The translations under genes and the position numbers were made by a program. Of a stretch of 64,000 bases of DNA, positions 14,881 through 47,629 are shown in pieces. Source of the stretch: Lentzea guizhouensis (GTDB lineage: Bacteria > Actinomycetota > Actinomycetes > Mycobacteriales > Pseudonocardiaceae); assembly GCF_001701025.1 (NCBI RefSeq), contig NZ_CP016793.1, positions 620,001-684,000 on the forward strand, read 5' to 3'. Every line of letters starts with the position of its first letter. Within the stretch, counting starts at the first letter, position 1. The notes below the pieces were generated by a model. It did no database searches. It was not told where the DNA came from and was given only the letters and a program-made list of their open reading frames with translations.

Positions 14881-14885
14881 GGAAG

Positions 14886-14926
14886 CTCCCCCAACTGGAC
14901 TCGAACCAGTAACCCTGCGATTAACG
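14886..14926 (-). other. attL: 3' half of a tRNA-Asn gene
   Basis: The reverse strand has the anticodon-side GTTAATC, variable region, T-arm ACTGGTTCGAGTCCAGT (14894-14910), acceptor strand TGGGGGA (14887-14893) and discriminator G, matching tRNA-Asn(GTT). Upstream of the anticodon loop the tRNA sequence ends and unrelated sequence begins, so the D-arm and 5' acceptor strand are missing. This is what tyrosine integrases leave at one end after recombining into a tRNA 3' half; the complete tRNA-Asn should be rebuilt at the right end, outside the window. Confidence 0.82.
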
Positions 14927-33963: not shown

Positions 33964-34530
33964 ATGACGGCACCCGACACCCCAGAGCCGTCAACGCCCG
34001 CTGCGGTCGAGCGGTACGTACACAAGGCCAGGCTCACGAACGTCGACCTCGCCCAGCAGGAACAGCTCTGCCTCGACCTGCGGCTCCAGCACCACACGAT
34101 CCGCGAGATCTCCGCGATCACTGGCTTGTCGGTCGGCACCGTGCACAAGCGGATCACGGACGCGATCGACCGGAACATTTCTCCGTTCGTGGAGAAGTAC
34201 CGCGTGCTCGAGCGCGAGCGGTTGGACGGGCTGTCGCGGCGGGTGCTGCAGCTGATGGCGAAGCCGCGGTACCTGATGCATGACGGCCAGGTGGTGACGA
34301 TCGACGAGGAGCCGGTCGAGGACATCGCGCTGACGCTGGCGTGCGTCGACAAGCTGCTGAAGATCCAGGAGCGGCGTGCGCGGCTGGAGGGCTTGGACGC
34401 GCCGGTGAAGGTGGATGTGGGGCAGGTTGAGGCGCCGCTTCCGGATGAGGCGTTGTCGATGATCGAGAAGGCTCGGAAGGTGGCCGAGGACGCGGAGCAG
34501 AAGCTGCGGAAGCAGGCCGAGGGCGCTTGA
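33964..34530 (+). CDS. terS: Terminase small subunit-like protein
   Basis: 188 residues. An N-terminal helix-turn-helix (LQHHTIREISAITGLSVGTV then HKRITDAIDRN) precedes a coiled-coil middle (FVEKYRVLERERLDGLSRRV) and a charged C-terminal helix. Length, domain order and location (just before the large subunit) fit a small terminase that recognises packaging sites. Specific DNA sites are not deduced. Confidence 0.72.
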   Translation: MTAPDTPEPSTPAAVERYVHKARLTNVDLAQQEQLCLDLRLQHHTIREISAITGLSVGTVHKRITDAIDRNISPFVEKYRVLERERLDGLSRRVLQLMAKPRYLMHDGQVVTIDEEPVEDIALTLACVDKLLKIQERRARLEGLDAPVKVDVGQVEAPLPDEALSMIEKARKVAEDAEQKLRKQAEGA

Positions 34531-43759: not shown

Positions 43760-44423
43760 ACCTCACAGGTTCTACCTCGACCGCCGCACTGACGTCACCG
43801 GCGCGTCCGGCACCGGCCGGGTCGCGGACGGCGTCCTGTGGCCGGACGGAACGGTCACGATTCGGTGGCGCGGCGAGCACCAGTCCACAGTGAACTGGGA
43901 CGACCTCGCGAGCGCCGAGACCGTGCACGGCCACGACGGCGCGACCCGCCTCGTGTTCCTCGACCTGGACGACGACGAGCACGCCGCCGAGCTGGAGCGG
44001 CTGCGCGCGGAGGTGGCGTGGCTCCGCGCCGGCGAGGACCCGTCGACGGAGCCGGTCGAGGGCGTGCGTCCGACGCCTGGCCAGTGGCTGGCGCGCTGGA
44101 ACCAGACGCCCGTCGATCAGCGCCTGGAACAGATCGGCATGTTGTTCGCCGCGGCGGCCGCCGGTGCCGCGTGCGAGCAAGCGGGGCACGCGACGTTGCA
44201 GGAGGAGCTCGTCGCGATGGCCCGTCGCGCCGGCGGCGCTGAGGCGAAGCTGCTGCGCGCGGCGTCCGTGCTGAAGCACGCGCCCAAGTCCTGCCAGTAC
44301 CACGGCACCGAGTTCGAGAGGTCCGGCATGCGCCGGGGGCTTCCGAGGTGCGAGTCGTGCCAGCAGCCGTATCGAGTCACGAAGGTCCTCGCCGCGATCG
44401 AAGGGACCGAGCCGCCGTGCTGA
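43752..44423 (+). CDS. Hypothetical protein
   Basis: 223 residues from GTG 43752. Beta-rich N-terminus (DGVLWPDGTVTIRWRGEHQS, DGATRLVFLDLDDDEHAAEL) runs into a helix and an Arg/Ala-rich middle; the C-terminus has CQYHGTEFERSGMRRGLPRC and ESCQQPY, a Cys/His pattern. Function unknown; overlaps the JAMM gene. Confidence 0.55.
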   Translation: MAEPHRFYLDRRTDVTGASGTGRVADGVLWPDGTVTIRWRGEHQSTVNWDDLASAETVHGHDGATRLVFLDLDDDEHAAELERLRAEVAWLRAGEDPSTEPVEGVRPTPGQWLARWNQTPVDQRLEQIGMLFAAAAAGAACEQAGHATLQEELVAMARRAGGAEAKLLRAASVLKHAPKSCQYHGTEFERSGMRRGLPRCESCQQPYRVTKVLAAIEGTEPPC

Positions 44424-44833
44424 CCATGCCCCGCCACCTGTTCGACGCGATGCTCGCGCACTGCCGCGCCGAGCACCCGATCGAGGCCTGCGGTGTTATG
44501 CCCGGCCCGCGCGCTGGCGACGTGCCGGACCGGATCGTGCCGATGCGCAACGCCGAGCGCTCGACCGTGGCGTACCGGTTTAACCCGGACGAACAGATCG
44601 AGGTGTGGCAGGAGATGGCCGAGAAGCGGGAACGGCCGGTCGTCATCTACCACTCGCACACGGCGACGCACGCGTACCCGTCCAGGCTGGACATCCAGCA
44701 CGCCACGATTCCCGAGGCGCACTGGGTGATCGTGGCGACGCGCGACCGCGGCAACGTCCGGATGCCGCCGGATGTGAAGTCGTTTCGCATCGTGAGCGGC
44801 GAGGTGGCGGAGGAGACCGTCACCGTCGTGTGA
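44417..44833 (+). CDS. JAB/MPN+ (JAMM) metalloprotease-like protein
   Basis: 138 residues from GTG 44417 (ATG 44426 possible). A full JAMM motif is visible: Glu23 (HPIEACG), His79-Ser-His81, seven residues, Ser89, two residues, Asp92 (HSHTATHAYPSRLD). Such zinc peptidases include bacterial deconjugases and the JAB domain of phage tail-assembly proteins. It sits directly before the Y RNA/Ro module and away from the tail genes, so a tail role is not obvious. Catalytic residues are complete. Confidence 0.88.
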   Translation: MLTMPRHLFDAMLAHCRAEHPIEACGVMPGPRAGDVPDRIVPMRNAERSTVAYRFNPDEQIEVWQEMAEKRERPVVIYHSHTATHAYPSRLDIQHATIPEAHWVIVATRDRGNVRMPPDVKSFRIVSGEVAEETVTVV

Positions 44834-44837
44834 ATGG

Positions 44838-44867
44838 TTCAAAGCAGTGGCACAGCTGGGTTACAGT
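44838..44867 (+). promoter_or_regulatory. Possible promoter for the Y RNA/Ro unit
   Basis: TTCAAA at 44838-44843 and TACAGT at 44862-44867 are separated by 18 bp, resembling -35 and -10 hexamers. They lie in the first bases after the JAMM gene and would start transcription near 44874, ahead of both the hairpin and the Y RNA fold. Weak evidence from hexamer similarity only. Confidence 0.35.
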
Positions 44868-44889
44868 GGACGTGCACTCCCGGTGCGAA

Positions 44890-44938
44890 GCCGACGGTTA
44901 CTTCTCTCGTAAAGAAACCCACCGTCGGCGCCCTGATC
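44890..44938 (+). ncRNA. Hairpin upstream of the Y RNA core, alternative pairing partner
   Basis: GCCGACGGT (44890-44898) pairs perfectly with ACCGTCGGC (44930-44938) around a 31-nt loop. The same left strand, extended as GAAGCCGACGG at 44887-44897, is also a perfect 11-base complement of CCGTCGGCTTC (45023-45033) in the Y RNA tRNA-like part. The loop contains GGTTACTTCTCTCG, similar to GGTTACTTCCTCTG inside the Y RNA. It may be part of the same transcript. Confidence 0.5.
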
Positions 44939-44955
44939 TCGGGAGCCAACAACTT

Positions 44956-45100
44956 CACACGGCCCGGTGCGCAGGCGAGGGTTACTTCCTCTGCAAAAGG
45001 TGAGGCGCAGGTTCGAATCCTGCCGTCGGCTTCATGTCGACGTGGTCTAGCGGCCCAGGACGCATTGTCACCTTCACCGACTTGACCTCGGGCCCGTGTG
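44956..45100 (+). ncRNA. yrlA: YrlA-type Y RNA with permuted tRNA-like module
   Basis: The RNA folds as a closed structure. Outer helix: CACACGGCCCG (44956-44966) with CGGGCCCGTGTG (45089-45100), 11 bp with one bulged C. Side hairpin GAGG-GTTACTT-CCTC (44977-44991). Inner helix: AAGGTGA (44997-45003) with TCACCTT (45068-45074). Then, in permuted tRNA order: T-arm GCAGG-TTCGAAT-CCTGC (45007-45023), a closed acceptor-like stem CGTCG/CGACG with a 9-nt loop (45024-45042), and a D-arm GTCTAGCGGCCCAGGAC (45045-45061). T-loop TTCGAAT and D-loop GG are kept. Known YrlA RNAs share this layout (Ro-binding stem replacing the anticodon arm) and lie beside Ro genes, as here. CTTGACC at 45081 resembles a Y RNA Ro-site strand. 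Confidence 0.8.
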
Positions 45101-45101
45101 A

Positions 45102-45134
45102 GGCTGTAGCTCCCTCTCGCAGAGAGGTTGAGCC
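45102..45134 (+). promoter_or_regulatory. Leader hairpin covering the Ro ribosome-binding site
   Basis: CCTCTC (45113-45118) pairs with GAGAGG (45122-45127) around a 3-base loop, and GGCT/AGCC (45102-45105 with 45131-45134) closes the outside. GAGAGG is the only good Shine-Dalgarno for the Ro GTG at 45136, eight bases away, so the hairpin would hide it. This suggests translational control, perhaps linked to Y RNA processing just upstream. Confidence 0.55.
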
Positions 45135-45135
45135 T

Positions 45136-46779
45136 GTGGCACGATTCAACACCCAAGGGGTCCGACCGGCTGTCTCCAGCCCGGTCGTCAGCACGCCCAC
45201 GATCGCCCGCAATCACCAGGGCGGCGAGGCCTTCGCGCGCGACACCAAGTCCGAGCTGTTCCTGCACGCCGTGTCCAACATGGTCGGCACCGACACCTTC
45301 TACGAGTCCGCCGAGAAGCGCGACGTCCGCTACGCCGACCTCGTGCGCACCGTCGCGCTGGAGGATCCGGCGTGGACGGCCCGGTTCCTGCTCTGGCTGC
45401 GCACCGAGGCGAACATGCGCACGGCATCGCTCGTCGGCGCGGCCGAGTACGTGCACGCCCGCCTCGCCGCCGCCGGCACGCGCCCGGCCGACCAGCACGA
45501 GACGCAGGCGCTCGACGGCACGTTCGACGGCGACCACCTCAACTACGTGCTGGCCGCCAACCGCAACGTCATCGAGTCCGTGCTGCAGCGCGCCGACGAG
45601 CCCGGCGAACTCCTCGCCTACTGGACCGCGGTGCACGGACGCAAGGTGCCCAAGCCCGTGAAGCGCGGCATCGCCGACGCCATCCAGCGCCTGTGGGACG
45701 AGCGCGCGGTGCTGAAGTGGGACAGCACCGCCCGCGGCTTCCGCATGGCCGACGTGCTGAACCTCGCGCACCCGTCACCGAAGGCGGACTGGCAGGGCGA
45801 CCTGTTCCAGCACATGCTCGACCGGCGACGCGACAACGAAGCCGCCATCCCCGCCCGGCTCGAGATGATGGCTGCGCGCGCCGAGCTGATGAAGTGGCCG
45901 GTCGAGAAGCGCCGTGCCCTGTTCGACCGTGACCGCGACGCCGTCTCCTCGGTGCTGCGGCAGGCAGGCATGACGTGGGAGTCGGTCGCCGGGTGGCTGC
46001 AGGGCCCGATGACCGCGCAGGTGTGGGAGGCGCTCGTCCCGACCATGGGCTACATGGCGTTGCTCCGTCAGCTCAGGAACTTCGACGAGGCCGGCGTCTC
46101 GGACGAGGTCGCAGCAGAGGTCGCGGCGAAGCTGGCGGACCCCGCGCAGGTGGAGCGGTCGCAGCAGTTCCCGTTCCGGTTCCTGGCCGCGTACCGGGCC
46201 GCGCCGTCGCTGCGGTGGGGGCACACACTGGAGAAGGCGCTGCAGGCGTCCCTGCGGAACGTGCCCGCGCTGCCGGGGCGGACGCTCGTGCTGATCGACC
46301 GGTCGCCGTCGATGTTCCCCGGCTACCACTTCTCGACGCCGTCCAAGTCGGACATCACGTGCGCGGACCAGGCGGCGGTGTTCGGTTGCGCGGTTGCGAT
46401 GCGCGCGGCCAACGCCACGACCGTGCTGTTCGGTGGCACGAGCCGCAAGGTCGACCCGCCCCGCGGCGGGTCGTTGCTGAAGTTCGTCGACGGCCTCGGC
46501 GACCCGATCAGCTACACGGACACGGCAGCTGCGGTGCGCGAGCACTTCGCCGGCCACGACCGCGTGATCATCGTGACCGACGAGCAGTCGGCCTCGGCTG
46601 ACGCTGCCGCCTCGGTGCCGGGCAGCACGCCGGTGTACGTGTGGAACCTGGGTGGCTACCAGCACGGCAACACCCGCTCCGGAGCGCGGAACCGGCACAC
46701 CTTCGGCGGCCTGACCGACGCGGCCTTCAAGATGATCCCGTGGCTCGAGTCCGGCCGAGACGCCACCTGGCCGTTCTGA
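45136..46779 (+). CDS. Ro60-like TROVE domain protein
   Basis: 547 residues from GTG 45136. The TROVE domain (about 25-330) is a HEAT-like ring: GGEAFARDTKSELFLHAVSN, DPAWTARFLLWLRTEANMRT, then PVKRGIADAIQRLWDERAVL. The C-terminal vWA domain has an intact MIDAS: DRSPS at 388-392 (LVLIDRSPSMF), TDTAA, and IIVTDEQSAS. Bacterial Ro proteins bind Y RNAs on the outer ring and misfolded RNA ends in the central hole, and work with exoribonucleases such as PNPase in RNA quality control and stress survival. The Y RNA is 36 bp upstream on the same strand, making this a complete Ro-Y RNP module in a prophage. Confidence 0.93.
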   Translation: MARFNTQGVRPAVSSPVVSTPTIARNHQGGEAFARDTKSELFLHAVSNMVGTDTFYESAEKRDVRYADLVRTVALEDPAWTARFLLWLRTEANMRTASLVGAAEYVHARLAAAGTRPADQHETQALDGTFDGDHLNYVLAANRNVIESVLQRADEPGELLAYWTAVHGRKVPKPVKRGIADAIQRLWDERAVLKWDSTARGFRMADVLNLAHPSPKADWQGDLFQHMLDRRRDNEAAIPARLEMMAARAELMKWPVEKRRALFDRDRDAVSSVLRQAGMTWESVAGWLQGPMTAQVWEALVPTMGYMALLRQLRNFDEAGVSDEVAAEVAAKLADPAQVERSQQFPFRFLAAYRAAPSLRWGHTLEKALQASLRNVPALPGRTLVLIDRSPSMFPGYHFSTPSKSDITCADQAAVFGCAVAMRAANATTVLFGGTSRKVDPPRGGSLLKFVDGLGDPISYTDTAAAVREHFAGHDRVIIVTDEQSASADAAASVPGSTPVYVWNLGGYQHGNTRSGARNRHTFGGLTDAAFKMIPWLESGRDATWPF

Positions 46780-46792
46780 ACGGCATGTGACA

Positions 46793-46826
46793 AAGGGCCC
46801 GCCCGGTGACATCCGGGCGGGCCCTT
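46793..46826. terminator. 14-bp hairpin between Ro gene and tRNA cluster
   Basis: AAGGGCCCGCCCGG (46793-46806) pairs perfectly with CCGGGCGGGCCCTT (46813-46826); loop TGACAT. Flanking A and T runs allow termination in both directions. It ends the Ro transcript and the opposing tRNA cluster transcript. Confidence 0.85.
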
Positions 46827-46833
46827 CTCGTTG

Positions 46834-46906
46834 TAGCGCCGGCGGGACTTGAACCCGCGACCTCTGGGTTATGAGCCCAGCGAGCTACCGACTGCTCCAC
46901 GGCGCA
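46834..46906 (-). tRNA. Initiator tRNA-fMet (CAT), phage-encoded
   Basis: The reverse strand gives a 73-nt tRNA: D-arm GAGCAGTCGGTAGCTC, anticodon arm CTGGG-CTCATAA-CCCAG, T-arm GCGGGTTCAAGTCCCGC. Two initiator hallmarks are present: three consecutive G:C pairs at the base of the anticodon stem and an unpaired position 1-72 (T opposite T). CCA is not encoded. Initiator tRNAs are rare in phages. Confidence 0.88.
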
Positions 46907-47002
46907 CCGCGGCTGCCACGGGCTGTCCCGCATCTCTGACGGGACCCTGCTGCCTCTCGACTCGACGTGGGGCGCCACGCCTCTTTCGACTTCGCCGAGC
47001 TG
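46907..47002 (-). other. Spacer with two hairpins in the tRNA cluster
   Basis: On the reverse strand the gap holds a GTCCCG...CGGGAC stem (9-nt loop) and a CGTGG-CGCC-CCACG stem. No complete tRNA arms are recognised; these could be processing spacers or decayed tRNA parts. Confidence 0.4.
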
Positions 47003-47074
47003 TAGCCGATCCGGGAATCGAACCCGGTTCCCCGCCTTGAAAGGGCGGTGCCTCAACCGTATGGCTCACCGGCC
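47003..47074 (-). tRNA. tRNA-Glu (TTC)
   Basis: Reverse strand: acceptor GGCCGGT with ATCGGCT (two G-U pairs), anticodon arm CCGCC-CTTTCAA-GGCGG, T-arm ACCGGGTTCGATTCCCGG. 72 nt without encoded CCA. The D-loop is short but consistent with actinobacterial tRNA-Glu. Confidence 0.87.
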
Positions 47075-47082
47075 TTGCTGCG

Positions 47083-47166
47083 CGGAAGACGAAGGGATCG
47101 AACCCTCGGGCTCTCGCCCGGCGACCGGTTAGCAACCGATCTGGCGCACCAGCGCCGCCGTCTTCC
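47083..47166 (-). tRNA. tRNA-Ser (GCT)
   Basis: Reverse strand, 84 nt with a class II long variable arm (CCGGGCGAGAGCCCG). Acceptor GGAAGAC/GTCTTCC, anticodon loop with GCT (GTTGCTAA region), T-arm GAGGGTTCGATCCCTTC. Discriminator G is typical of serine tRNAs. Confidence 0.85.
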
Positions 47167-47179
47167 AGTCGAGCATCAG

Positions 47180-47263
47180 CAGAAGGCGGAGGTATCGAAC
47201 CCCCAGGCTGTTAGGCCCGGCCCGGTTTTCAAGACCGGTTTGCCGACCTCGGCGCCGCCTTCC
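47180..47263 (-). tRNA. tRNA-Ser (TGA)
   Basis: Reverse strand, 84 nt with a long variable arm (GCCGGGCCTAACAGCCTGG). Acceptor GGAAGGC/GCCTTCT, anticodon arm CCGGT-CTTGAAA-ACCGG, discriminator G, T-arm GGGGGTTCGATACCTCC. Anticodon TGA reads UCN codons. Confidence 0.83.
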
Positions 47264-47266
47264 ATG

Positions 47267-47349
47267 TCCCGCCGACCGGATTTGAACCGGCGCTTCCGCG
47301 ATCGGTGTCACTCCCCTTGCCGGGGTTCGCGGGGTGCTGGATCAACGGG
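47267..47349 (-). tRNA. Degenerate tRNA-like element
   Basis: The reverse strand keeps an acceptor-like pair CCCGTTG/CGGCGGG (two G-U pairs) and a T-arm CCGGTTCAAATCCGG, but the middle folds as CCGCGA...TCGCGG around a CCCC-GGCAA-GGGG hairpin and has no normal D-arm or anticodon loop (a possible GCA lacks U33). It is a decayed class II-like tRNA or a tRNA mimic. Confidence 0.4.
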
Positions 47350-47411
47350 TCCCCGCAGGAGACTCGATCTCCACGATCGCGGCGTCTTAGGCCGCTGAAC
47401 TACTAGCAGGA
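47350..47411 (-). tRNA. Shortened tRNA-like element
   Basis: About 62 nt on the reverse strand with a D-arm like GTTCAGCGGCCTAAGAC, a four-base-loop stem CCGC-GATC-GTGG where an anticodon arm should be, and a T-arm GGAG-ATCGAGT-CTCC. The acceptor pairs only partly. It cannot decode, so it is a relic or a mimic; it is the first element of the cluster transcript. Confidence 0.38.
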
Positions 47412-47629
47412 CATGGGCGCATCGTACCGACGAATCTTCGGTAGCGCGATCTATCTTCCGCCGTTTCGTCGTAGCTTTGCCTGACTAAGCGTGTATTCTT
47501 CGGCCAGGTGTACGGCCCGTGATGGGCGTCCACCGCATCCGGTGATCGGACCCAGCAAGACCTCCGACCCGCGTGCCCGTGATGGGGCGCAGGTGCCAGC
47601 CACCTCCCCATCGCCTGAAGGGCACGACC
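47412..47629. promoter_or_regulatory. Divergent control gap with CCGAAGAWT elements
   Basis: CCGACGAATCTTCGG at 47427-47441 (near-palindrome) and ATTCTTCGG at 47495-47503 lie between the leftward tRNA cluster and the rightward major capsid gene. This is the largest concentration of the recurring element and precedes the most strongly expressed late gene. No other structure is evident apart from AT-richer segments near 47445-47490. Confidence 0.5.

Follow-up and report, generated by a model that had tools for sequence, protein, structure and literature searches.

Why should phages carry Ro proteins, and what purpose does tRNA mimicry serve in the Y RNAs that accompany them? Both questions are raised by a locus of the actinomycete Lentzea guizhouensis, in a stretch of 64,000 nucleotides (contig NZ_CP016793.1, positions 620,001 to 684,000; hereafter the window, position 1 being its first letter). 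The window is part of an 87-kb prophage, as a 41-bp att direct repeat and an integrase gene establish, and in it a gene for the Ro60 protein lies just downstream of two small RNA elements, the compact Ya and the tRNA-like Yb (Table 1). Bacterial Ro proteins with Y RNAs, tRNA mimicry by these RNAs and examples in mycobacteriophages are known (Chen 2014, cited in passages of PMC12282133 and PMC8394870). The module is a member of this known Ro-Y kind; what appears to be new is an anticodon arm, and its display on two RNAs. The anatomy of these Y RNAs, and selection on that anatomy, are supported by the sequence comparisons that follow. As to function, we judge it fairly probable that the prophage bears a Ro60 ribonucleoprotein (RNP) module whose Y RNAs offer a tRNA surface to tRNA-acting enzymes.

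Yb reads, from its sequence and its alignment with relatives, as a complete circularly permuted tRNA into which a Ro-binding stem has been inserted between tRNA positions 28 and 29. A sequence-only reading of this DNA had already proposed the closing helix, the inner helix, the T arm, an acceptor-like stem and the D arm; all of them can be read both in the sequence and in the tRNA parse, and relatives show covariation in the proposed helices. In an alignment of 25 relatives, the window left out (36 pairs in six helices), 94.1% of cells hold standard pairs, against 38-49% when the partners are slid by 1-3 columns, and doubly changed cells number 192 against 64 on shuffling of the same 36 pairs. 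Helix 1, the basal stem formed by the 5' and 3' ends, is 91.6% paired, with 8 of its 10 pairs changed on both sides; the T, acceptor and D helices (helices 4-6) are paired in 100, 95.4 and 98.0% of cells. The covariance model R1 (the 25 relatives, window excluded) places Yb at 44958-45098 (93.0 bits, E 1.8e-22) and also matches Ya (48.6 bits), its best score outside both Y RNAs being 15.2 bits; the model R2, from which the window was likewise excluded, finds Ya at 75.0 bits (E 1.5e-12). The chromosomal Ro locus of the same genome supplies one of the 25 rows of alignment A1 and one of the 28 rows of alignment A2. Of 344 genomes of the class, 45 have a full-length match to R1 that scores 80 bits or more, as counted from the table of matches.

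Across the entire 10-Mb genome R1 matches at seven places, two at the prophage Ro and four at a chromosomal Ro (locus L009, C1:3930562-3931120, minus strand; L numbers denote fetched loci), where there are four Y RNAs; relatives in the same genus have a further RNA with a T arm and a D-like hairpin and no clear anticodon arm. The seventh match is weak and partial, and falls at the junction of two tandem tRNA genes (L160, C1:3301869-3301948). The permuted order of Yb equals that of a tandem-tRNA junction, which suggests an origin from tandem tRNAs.

The end of Yb lies 35 nucleotides from the start codon of Ro. The sequence-only reading was right that Ro and a tRNA-like Y RNA are both present, but in calling the module complete it read too little, for it overlooked a second Y RNA, Ya, and the anticodon arms of both. 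The two share an architecture, CCGGUGCG..GGUUACUUC on the 5' side and UUGAUCUCGG or variants on the 3' side; the resemblance of Ya to tRNA is confined to an anticodon-like stem-loop, with no other tRNA part. Of 86 Ro loci, which include two pairs of duplicate or near-duplicate loci, 78 have one to four such Y motifs upstream of Ro and on its strand; among the eight that lack a strict motif, L051 and L057 start close to the end of a contig and at least L031 has a variant motif. Removal of coding matches reduces the motif sites from 171 to 168. Of 49 loci, 20 have a TANNNT hexamer within 20 nucleotides upstream of the compact Y RNA (mean of shuffles 9.1, maximum 17), and a weak one lies just 5' of Ya; a scan for sigma-70 promoters found none.

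The arm sits at the same place in Ya and Yb: a hairpin with a 7-nucleotide loop directly follows the UAC of GGUUACUUC. Where the arm is present its loop is often CUNNNAA, on a covarying stem. The Ya loop, CUCGUAA, is identical to that of the host tRNA-Thr(CGU) and the Yb loop, CUGCAAA, to that of the host tRNA-Cys(GCA). At 40 of the 168 sites there is a hairpin whose loop equals a host tRNA loop, where 500 shuffles average 0.25 such sites and never exceed 2 (the host set comprises 48 distinct loops from the fetched part of the genome's 66 tRNA matches, prophage tRNAs included), and the matches extend to loops outside the CUNNNAA pattern, for example those of tRNA-His in L071 and tRNA-Gln in L047. 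Selection of CUNNNAA sites by sequence alone yields 67, of which 49 are unique. Their flanks are complementary at positions 1, 2 and 3 in 42, 45 and 46 of the 49 (shuffle means 18.7, 23.8 and 38.4; none of 2000 shuffles reaches the observed values), and the closing pairs are UA in 16, AU in 14, CG in 9, GC in 2 and UG in 1. These 49 sites hold 25 different triplets, the commonest being GCA (Cys), with 7, in the window, in the phages Kela, JustBecause, VanLee and Quantum, which represent three phage lineages, and in two chromosomal loci. Close relatives differ in the triplet but for the most part retain C32, U33, A37, A38 and the stem; the arm is therefore read as a shape and not as a codon reader.

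The remainder of the anticodon stem is found across the insertion. In 33 of 37 non-redundant Yb, positions 27-28, which follow the D arm, pair with 42-43, which precede the variable loop (shuffles: mean 13.3, maximum 22). These 37 derive from 63 of 85 parsed rows, weak parses and TCAGG-type RNAs being left out and seven rows added by hand, all seven of which pair; without the added rows the figure is 29 of 33 (mean 11.8, maximum 19), and with all 85 parsed rows it is 36 of 45 (mean 16.7, maximum 26). The pairs in arm-bearing Yb are CC/GG, GC/GC, CU/AG, UC/GA and AC/GU, with CA/UG in the window. An anticodon stem is thus present, split between positions 28 and 29 where the Ro-binding stem is inserted. 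In other lineages, L023, L058, L071 and L072 among them, the 27-31/39-43 stem is long-range over its full length, and the loop gives way to the Ro stem; the Rfam YrlA consensus reads like a member of this class. In hold-out genomes, 27-28 pairing occurs in 24 of 24 (mean 12.4, maximum 18) and host-loop matches at 10 of 40 sites (mean 0.06, maximum 1), and CUNNNAA flanks are complementary in 9 of 9 at each of the three positions, a sample so small that some shuffles reach the same value. The hold-out consists of 20 regions picked by hand from matches to R1, which itself holds the 27-28/42-43 pairs as 2 of its 36; four regions are without a site, one (G1112) had been glimpsed beforehand, and two of the 24 parses have very short 5' parts.

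Against this interpretation stand the energetics of the naked RNA, the uneven occurrence of the arm and the verdicts of existing family models. The minimum energy of naked Yb is -59.8 kcal/mol, as against -41.9 for the comparative fold, and its arm, CCU-CUGCAAA-AGG, is absent from the minimum-energy structure; among 14 arm-bearing Yb, energy folding gives the arm a probability above 0.5 in only 2, and in all 18 Yb folded, a set chosen by hand, the 27-28 pairing has a probability of at most 0.14. The single-sequence fold of Ya keeps the inner helix and the arm and lacks the closing helix. The arm is present in 16 of the 37 non-redundant Yb; another 16 have only a long-range anticodon stem that lacks the loop, and the remaining 5 have neither. 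Below 75% identity an intact arm is found in 5 of 15, a value matched by 20 of 2000 shuffles, whereas the 27-28 pairing holds (12 of 15; mean 4.7, maximum 10); all of the shuffle tests are inflated by the relatedness of the sequences. The Rfam YrlA model (RF02553) gives the window RNA 13.9 bits where its gathering score is 69, so that membership of this family is rejected: "YrlA-type", as the RNA had been called, holds for a tRNA-like and YrlA-like Yb that lies outside RF02553 as modelled. The Rfam tRNA model (RF00005) narrowly misses its cut-off on Yb (28.2 against 29) with a match that lacks the D arm, and ARAGORN calls no tRNA at 44870-45100. Real tRNA folds also depend on tertiary contacts, and Ro may be needed for the comparative fold of Yb.

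That the product of 45136-46779 is a genuine Ro60 follows from protein-family matches together with a modelled structure. Pfam TROVE matches at E 6e-17 over residues 292-353 only, PHROG 850 ("RNA-binding protein") at E 1.5e-48, and the sequences of solved TROVE proteins at E 4e-19. The AlphaFold model (mean predicted local distance difference test score, pLDDT, 85.8; predicted template-modelling score, pTM, 0.85) has as its 13 best PDB matches Ro60/TROVE structures exclusively (E 1e-16 to 2e-11; TM score 0.56-0.74 over the query length), the best being human, frog, Deinococcus and Thermus phage proteins, and the metal ion-dependent adhesion site (MIDAS) D388-x-S390-x-S392 (DxSxS) is invariant in 88 Ro rows, some of them near-duplicates. 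The sequence-only assignment of a TROVE/vWA Ro protein thus agrees with Pfam, PHROG and predicted fold. The prophage Ro is 63% identical to the chromosomal Ro of its own genome. A recent copying of the latter into the prophage is ruled out by a midpoint-rooted tree of 81 proteins, in which a branch with support values of 100/99 separates the prophage Ro from 41 rows that include the chromosomal one. The label "phage" requires at least 5 changes on this tree; Ro has therefore moved between phages and hosts more than once. Of the genomes searched, 69 of 297 in the family, 29 of 298 in the order and 15 of 396 in the phylum have a homologue; among 50,697 phage records, 84 do. The same genome has a third, distant Ro-like open frame of 354 amino acids (C1:2095281-2096285, minus strand), near which (fetched loci L010-L012) no Y motif was found.

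These parts would work together as follows. Ya, Yb and Ro run in the same direction and probably form one transcription unit; each Y RNA would hold Ro by the basal stem of its two ends, as published Ro-Y RNAs do. Away from Ro, Yb would present the complete permuted tRNA and Ya its anticodon-like stem-loop, and this surface may draw modifying enzymes, exonucleases such as PNPase or tRNA-cleaving enzymes to Ro, or gate their access. The role in RNA or tRNA quality control during lytic growth proposed from sequence alone is plausible. A rival account, possible though in our estimate unlikely, is that the module is an ordinary one, whose tRNA body does no more than tether or gate exonucleases as in Deinococcus and whose 7-nucleotide hairpin is either left over or a capping loop of a general kind. 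The 21 of 37 non-redundant Yb without an arm favor it, as does the neglect of the arm by most naked folds; it sits poorly with loop flanks that covary through all four Watson-Crick pairs and with matches to tRNA loops far above chance, in Ya too, where no other tRNA part exists. The RNAs could instead be the 5' leader of the Ro mRNA, Ro binding controlling its own expression, since Y RNAs precede Ro on its strand at most loci; that each locus has one to four independently closed copies, and that published bacterial Y RNAs are free RNAs, makes this improbable as the whole story, though it is compatible with a tRNA surface offered to enzymes. Decay of tRNA genes from the neighboring phage cluster has the near miss of the Rfam tRNA model in its favor, and ARAGORN calls some relatives tRNA (the Yb of L003, L005, L006 and L069). 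It is disfavored, to the point of being very hard to credit, by the missing D arm in that match, by the silence of ARAGORN on the window RNA, by the covariation of closing and inner helices, and by the recurrence of the arrangement beside Ro in chromosomes and phages alike.

A more adventurous proposal is that the anticodon arms of Ya and Yb, mounted on Ro, are decoys that bait anticodon nucleases of the host or of rival phages (of the VapC, PrrC or colicin type) and so spare the phage tRNAs. The loops often equal real tRNA loops and their triplets vary, GCA being the commonest; 10 of 12 phage records have a non-Y tRNA gene within 1.5-2.5 kb of Ro, and 7 have at least 3; and an RNA ligase gene directly precedes Ro in the Streptomyces phage Kela and its near-copy JustBecause. 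In a passage of PMC7790460 the Salmonella authors raise, as one possibility, that YrlA competitively inhibits an anticodon nuclease, and part of PMC10264068 makes the case that phage tRNAs serve to evade such nucleases. Yet chromosomal Ro loci bear the same arms, which are therefore not phage-specific; the host has a single PIN-domain match and no AAA_13 (PrrC/RloC-type) match; and an excerpt of PMC7790460 reports no YrlA fragments in Salmonella, so that YrlA is not cut there. On balance we doubt that decoy action is the function. Equally doubtful, in its general form, is the notion that actinobacterial and phage Ro RNPs display tRNA-copied anticodon stem-loops with fast-changing triplets as bait or sensors for anticodon-loop readers or cutters. 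If true, it would amount to an RNP-based counter-defence in phages, an anticodon-nuclease sponge carried beside phage tRNAs.

How far the module departs from its known counterparts can be stated for each of them. Salmonella and other enterobacterial YrlA (RF02553) with Rsr resemble it in lying next to Ro, in the basal stem of both ends and in the T, acceptor and D arms; the tRNA-like domain of YrlA is described as similar to these same three arms in a section of PMC8394870, and unlike YrlA as described there the window RNA has an anticodon arm and is accompanied by a compact second RNA with only that arm. The "Ro-like RNA binding proteins" of Streptomyces, Gordonia and Arthrobacter phages are 40-47% identical to the window Ro and belong to another phage type, whereas the module here is in an integrated prophage, between scaffold and capsid genes; with the filter relaxed for phages, Y motifs lie upstream in 11 of the 12 phage Ro records read, none being found in Atuin. 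The chromosomal Ro loci of related actinomycetes, that of the same genome included, have the same kind of Y array. With Ro60 of the Thermus phage phiLo (PDB 9l5y) and Rsr of Deinococcus (PDB 2nvo), compared as proteins alone, the Ro fold is shared at 18-21% identity. In PMC12282133 an Rsr accompanied by Y RNAs is suggested for a Listeria phage from highly transcribed regions, and the jumbo-phage authors class TROVE proteins among RNA-repair systems in a portion of PMC7824862. The literature search, which did not extend to the primary Y RNA papers, found no anticodon arm in a bacterial Y RNA, and an earlier description is possible; it found nothing relevant on phiLo Ro60 or on VapC4 with tRNA-Cys. 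Annotated phage "tRNA" genes just before Ro overlap Y motifs in VanLee, JustBecause, Alone3, Frankenweenie and GiJojo, and are likely misannotations.

The setting is also as the sequence-only reading had it: the gene calls agree that the Ro-RNA pair lies in a prophage, between scaffold and capsid genes and beside a tRNA cluster. The order is JAB-domain protein, Ya, Yb and Ro, then the minus-strand tRNA genes, then capsid. This placement is not general, as the differing flanks of Ro at three other loci indicate: at L001 they hold a minor tail gene, at L003 genes for holin, tail and integrase, and at L005 genes for holin and exonuclease. The prophage terminase and its counterparts in Streptomyces phages such as Yara share about 50% identity. 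Among 298 genomes of the order the capsid protein was found in this one alone; the phage type is therefore little sampled. When phages with the same capsid and with Ro at the same place were sought, the capsid had as its relatives two viral contigs (identity 37-39%) and none of the other genomes among the 298; at L101 no Y motif rises above chance. An inverted repeat after Ro, read by eye, was not called by a terminator scan that needs a T run. By the tRNA cluster (47265-47415, minus strand) there is, by eye, a T-arm-like tRNA piece where ARAGORN calls nothing, and 5' of the terminase gene (33964-34530) a small protein is matched to sigma-70 region 4 by Pfam yet to "RNase E" by PHROGs.

Table 1. 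Coordinates of the Ro-Y module and its surroundings (window positions unless a locus is named)
Feature	Position	Strand	Basis or remark
Ya, compact Y RNA	44873..44949	+	model R2, 75.0 bits
Ya closing helix	44877-44882/44940-44945	+	
Ya inner 9-bp helix	44890-44898/44921-44929	+	
Ya anticodon-arm mimic UUCU-CUCGUAA-AGAA	44902..44916	+	loop tests; in single-sequence fold
Yb, tRNA-like Y RNA	44956..45100	+	covariance model R1, covariation in 25 relatives
Yb closing helix	44956-44966/45089-45100	+	C45095 bulged
Yb inner helix	44974-44982/45070-45078	+	8 of 9 positions paired
Yb anticodon-arm mimic CCU-CUGCAAA-AGG, tRNA positions 29-41	44988..45000	+	tRNA parse, loop tests
Yb tRNA positions 42-43 (UG)	45001..45002	+	pair with 45063-45064 (CA, positions 27-28)
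Yb T arm GCAGG-UUCGAAU-CCUGC	45007..45023	+	tRNA parse, covariation
Yb 7-bp acceptor stem CGUCGGC/GUCGACG, loop UUCAU	45024..45042	+	tRNA parse, covariation
Yb U8	45043	+	tRNA parse
Yb D arm GUCU-AGCGGCCCA-GGAC, GG in loop	45045..45061	+	tRNA parse, covariation
Ro60 (TROVE + vWA), GTG start	45136..46779	+	Pfam, PHROG, predicted fold, MIDAS
TACAGT, weak -10-like hexamer	44862..44867	+	just 5' of Ya
G+C-rich inverted repeat, possible terminator	46795..46824	+	read by eye after Ro gene
Prophage end, 41-bp repeat of tRNA-Asn end	14885..14925	+	second copy 87,140 bp further, outside window
Tyrosine-type phage integrase	22319..23320	+	protein-family match
Terminase gene	starts 35173		upstream of Ro
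Portal gene	starts 36857		upstream of Ro
Scaffold gene	starts 39522		upstream of Ro
JAB-domain protein	44348-44833		upstream of Ya; domain match
Four tRNA genes: Met, Glu, Ser(gct), Ser(tga)	46833..47263	-	ARAGORN
Major capsid gene	starts 47573		after tRNA cluster
Tape measure gene	starts 52927		
RNA ligase gene directly upstream of Ro	L043 1729-2481 (Kela), L096 1729-2481 (JustBecause)		
Phage "tRNA" annotations overlapping Y motifs	L044 2204-2275, L096 1335-1405, L093 1274-1347, L094 2245-2335, L042 2269-2343		

The consequences for annotation are direct: the Rfam YrlA model does not capture RNA of the Yb type, and some annotated phage "tRNAs" beside Ro are likely parts of Y RNAs. The anticodon arm in both Y RNAs, backed by covariation and by the many loops identical to tRNA loops, narrows the candidate partners of the module to recognisers of the anticodon loop: position-37 modifiers, TruA-type enzymes and anticodon nucleases. 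The question of the partner becomes testable in phages of laboratory Streptomyces, and the presence of the arm in both RNAs could help to explain the function of phage Ro proteins.

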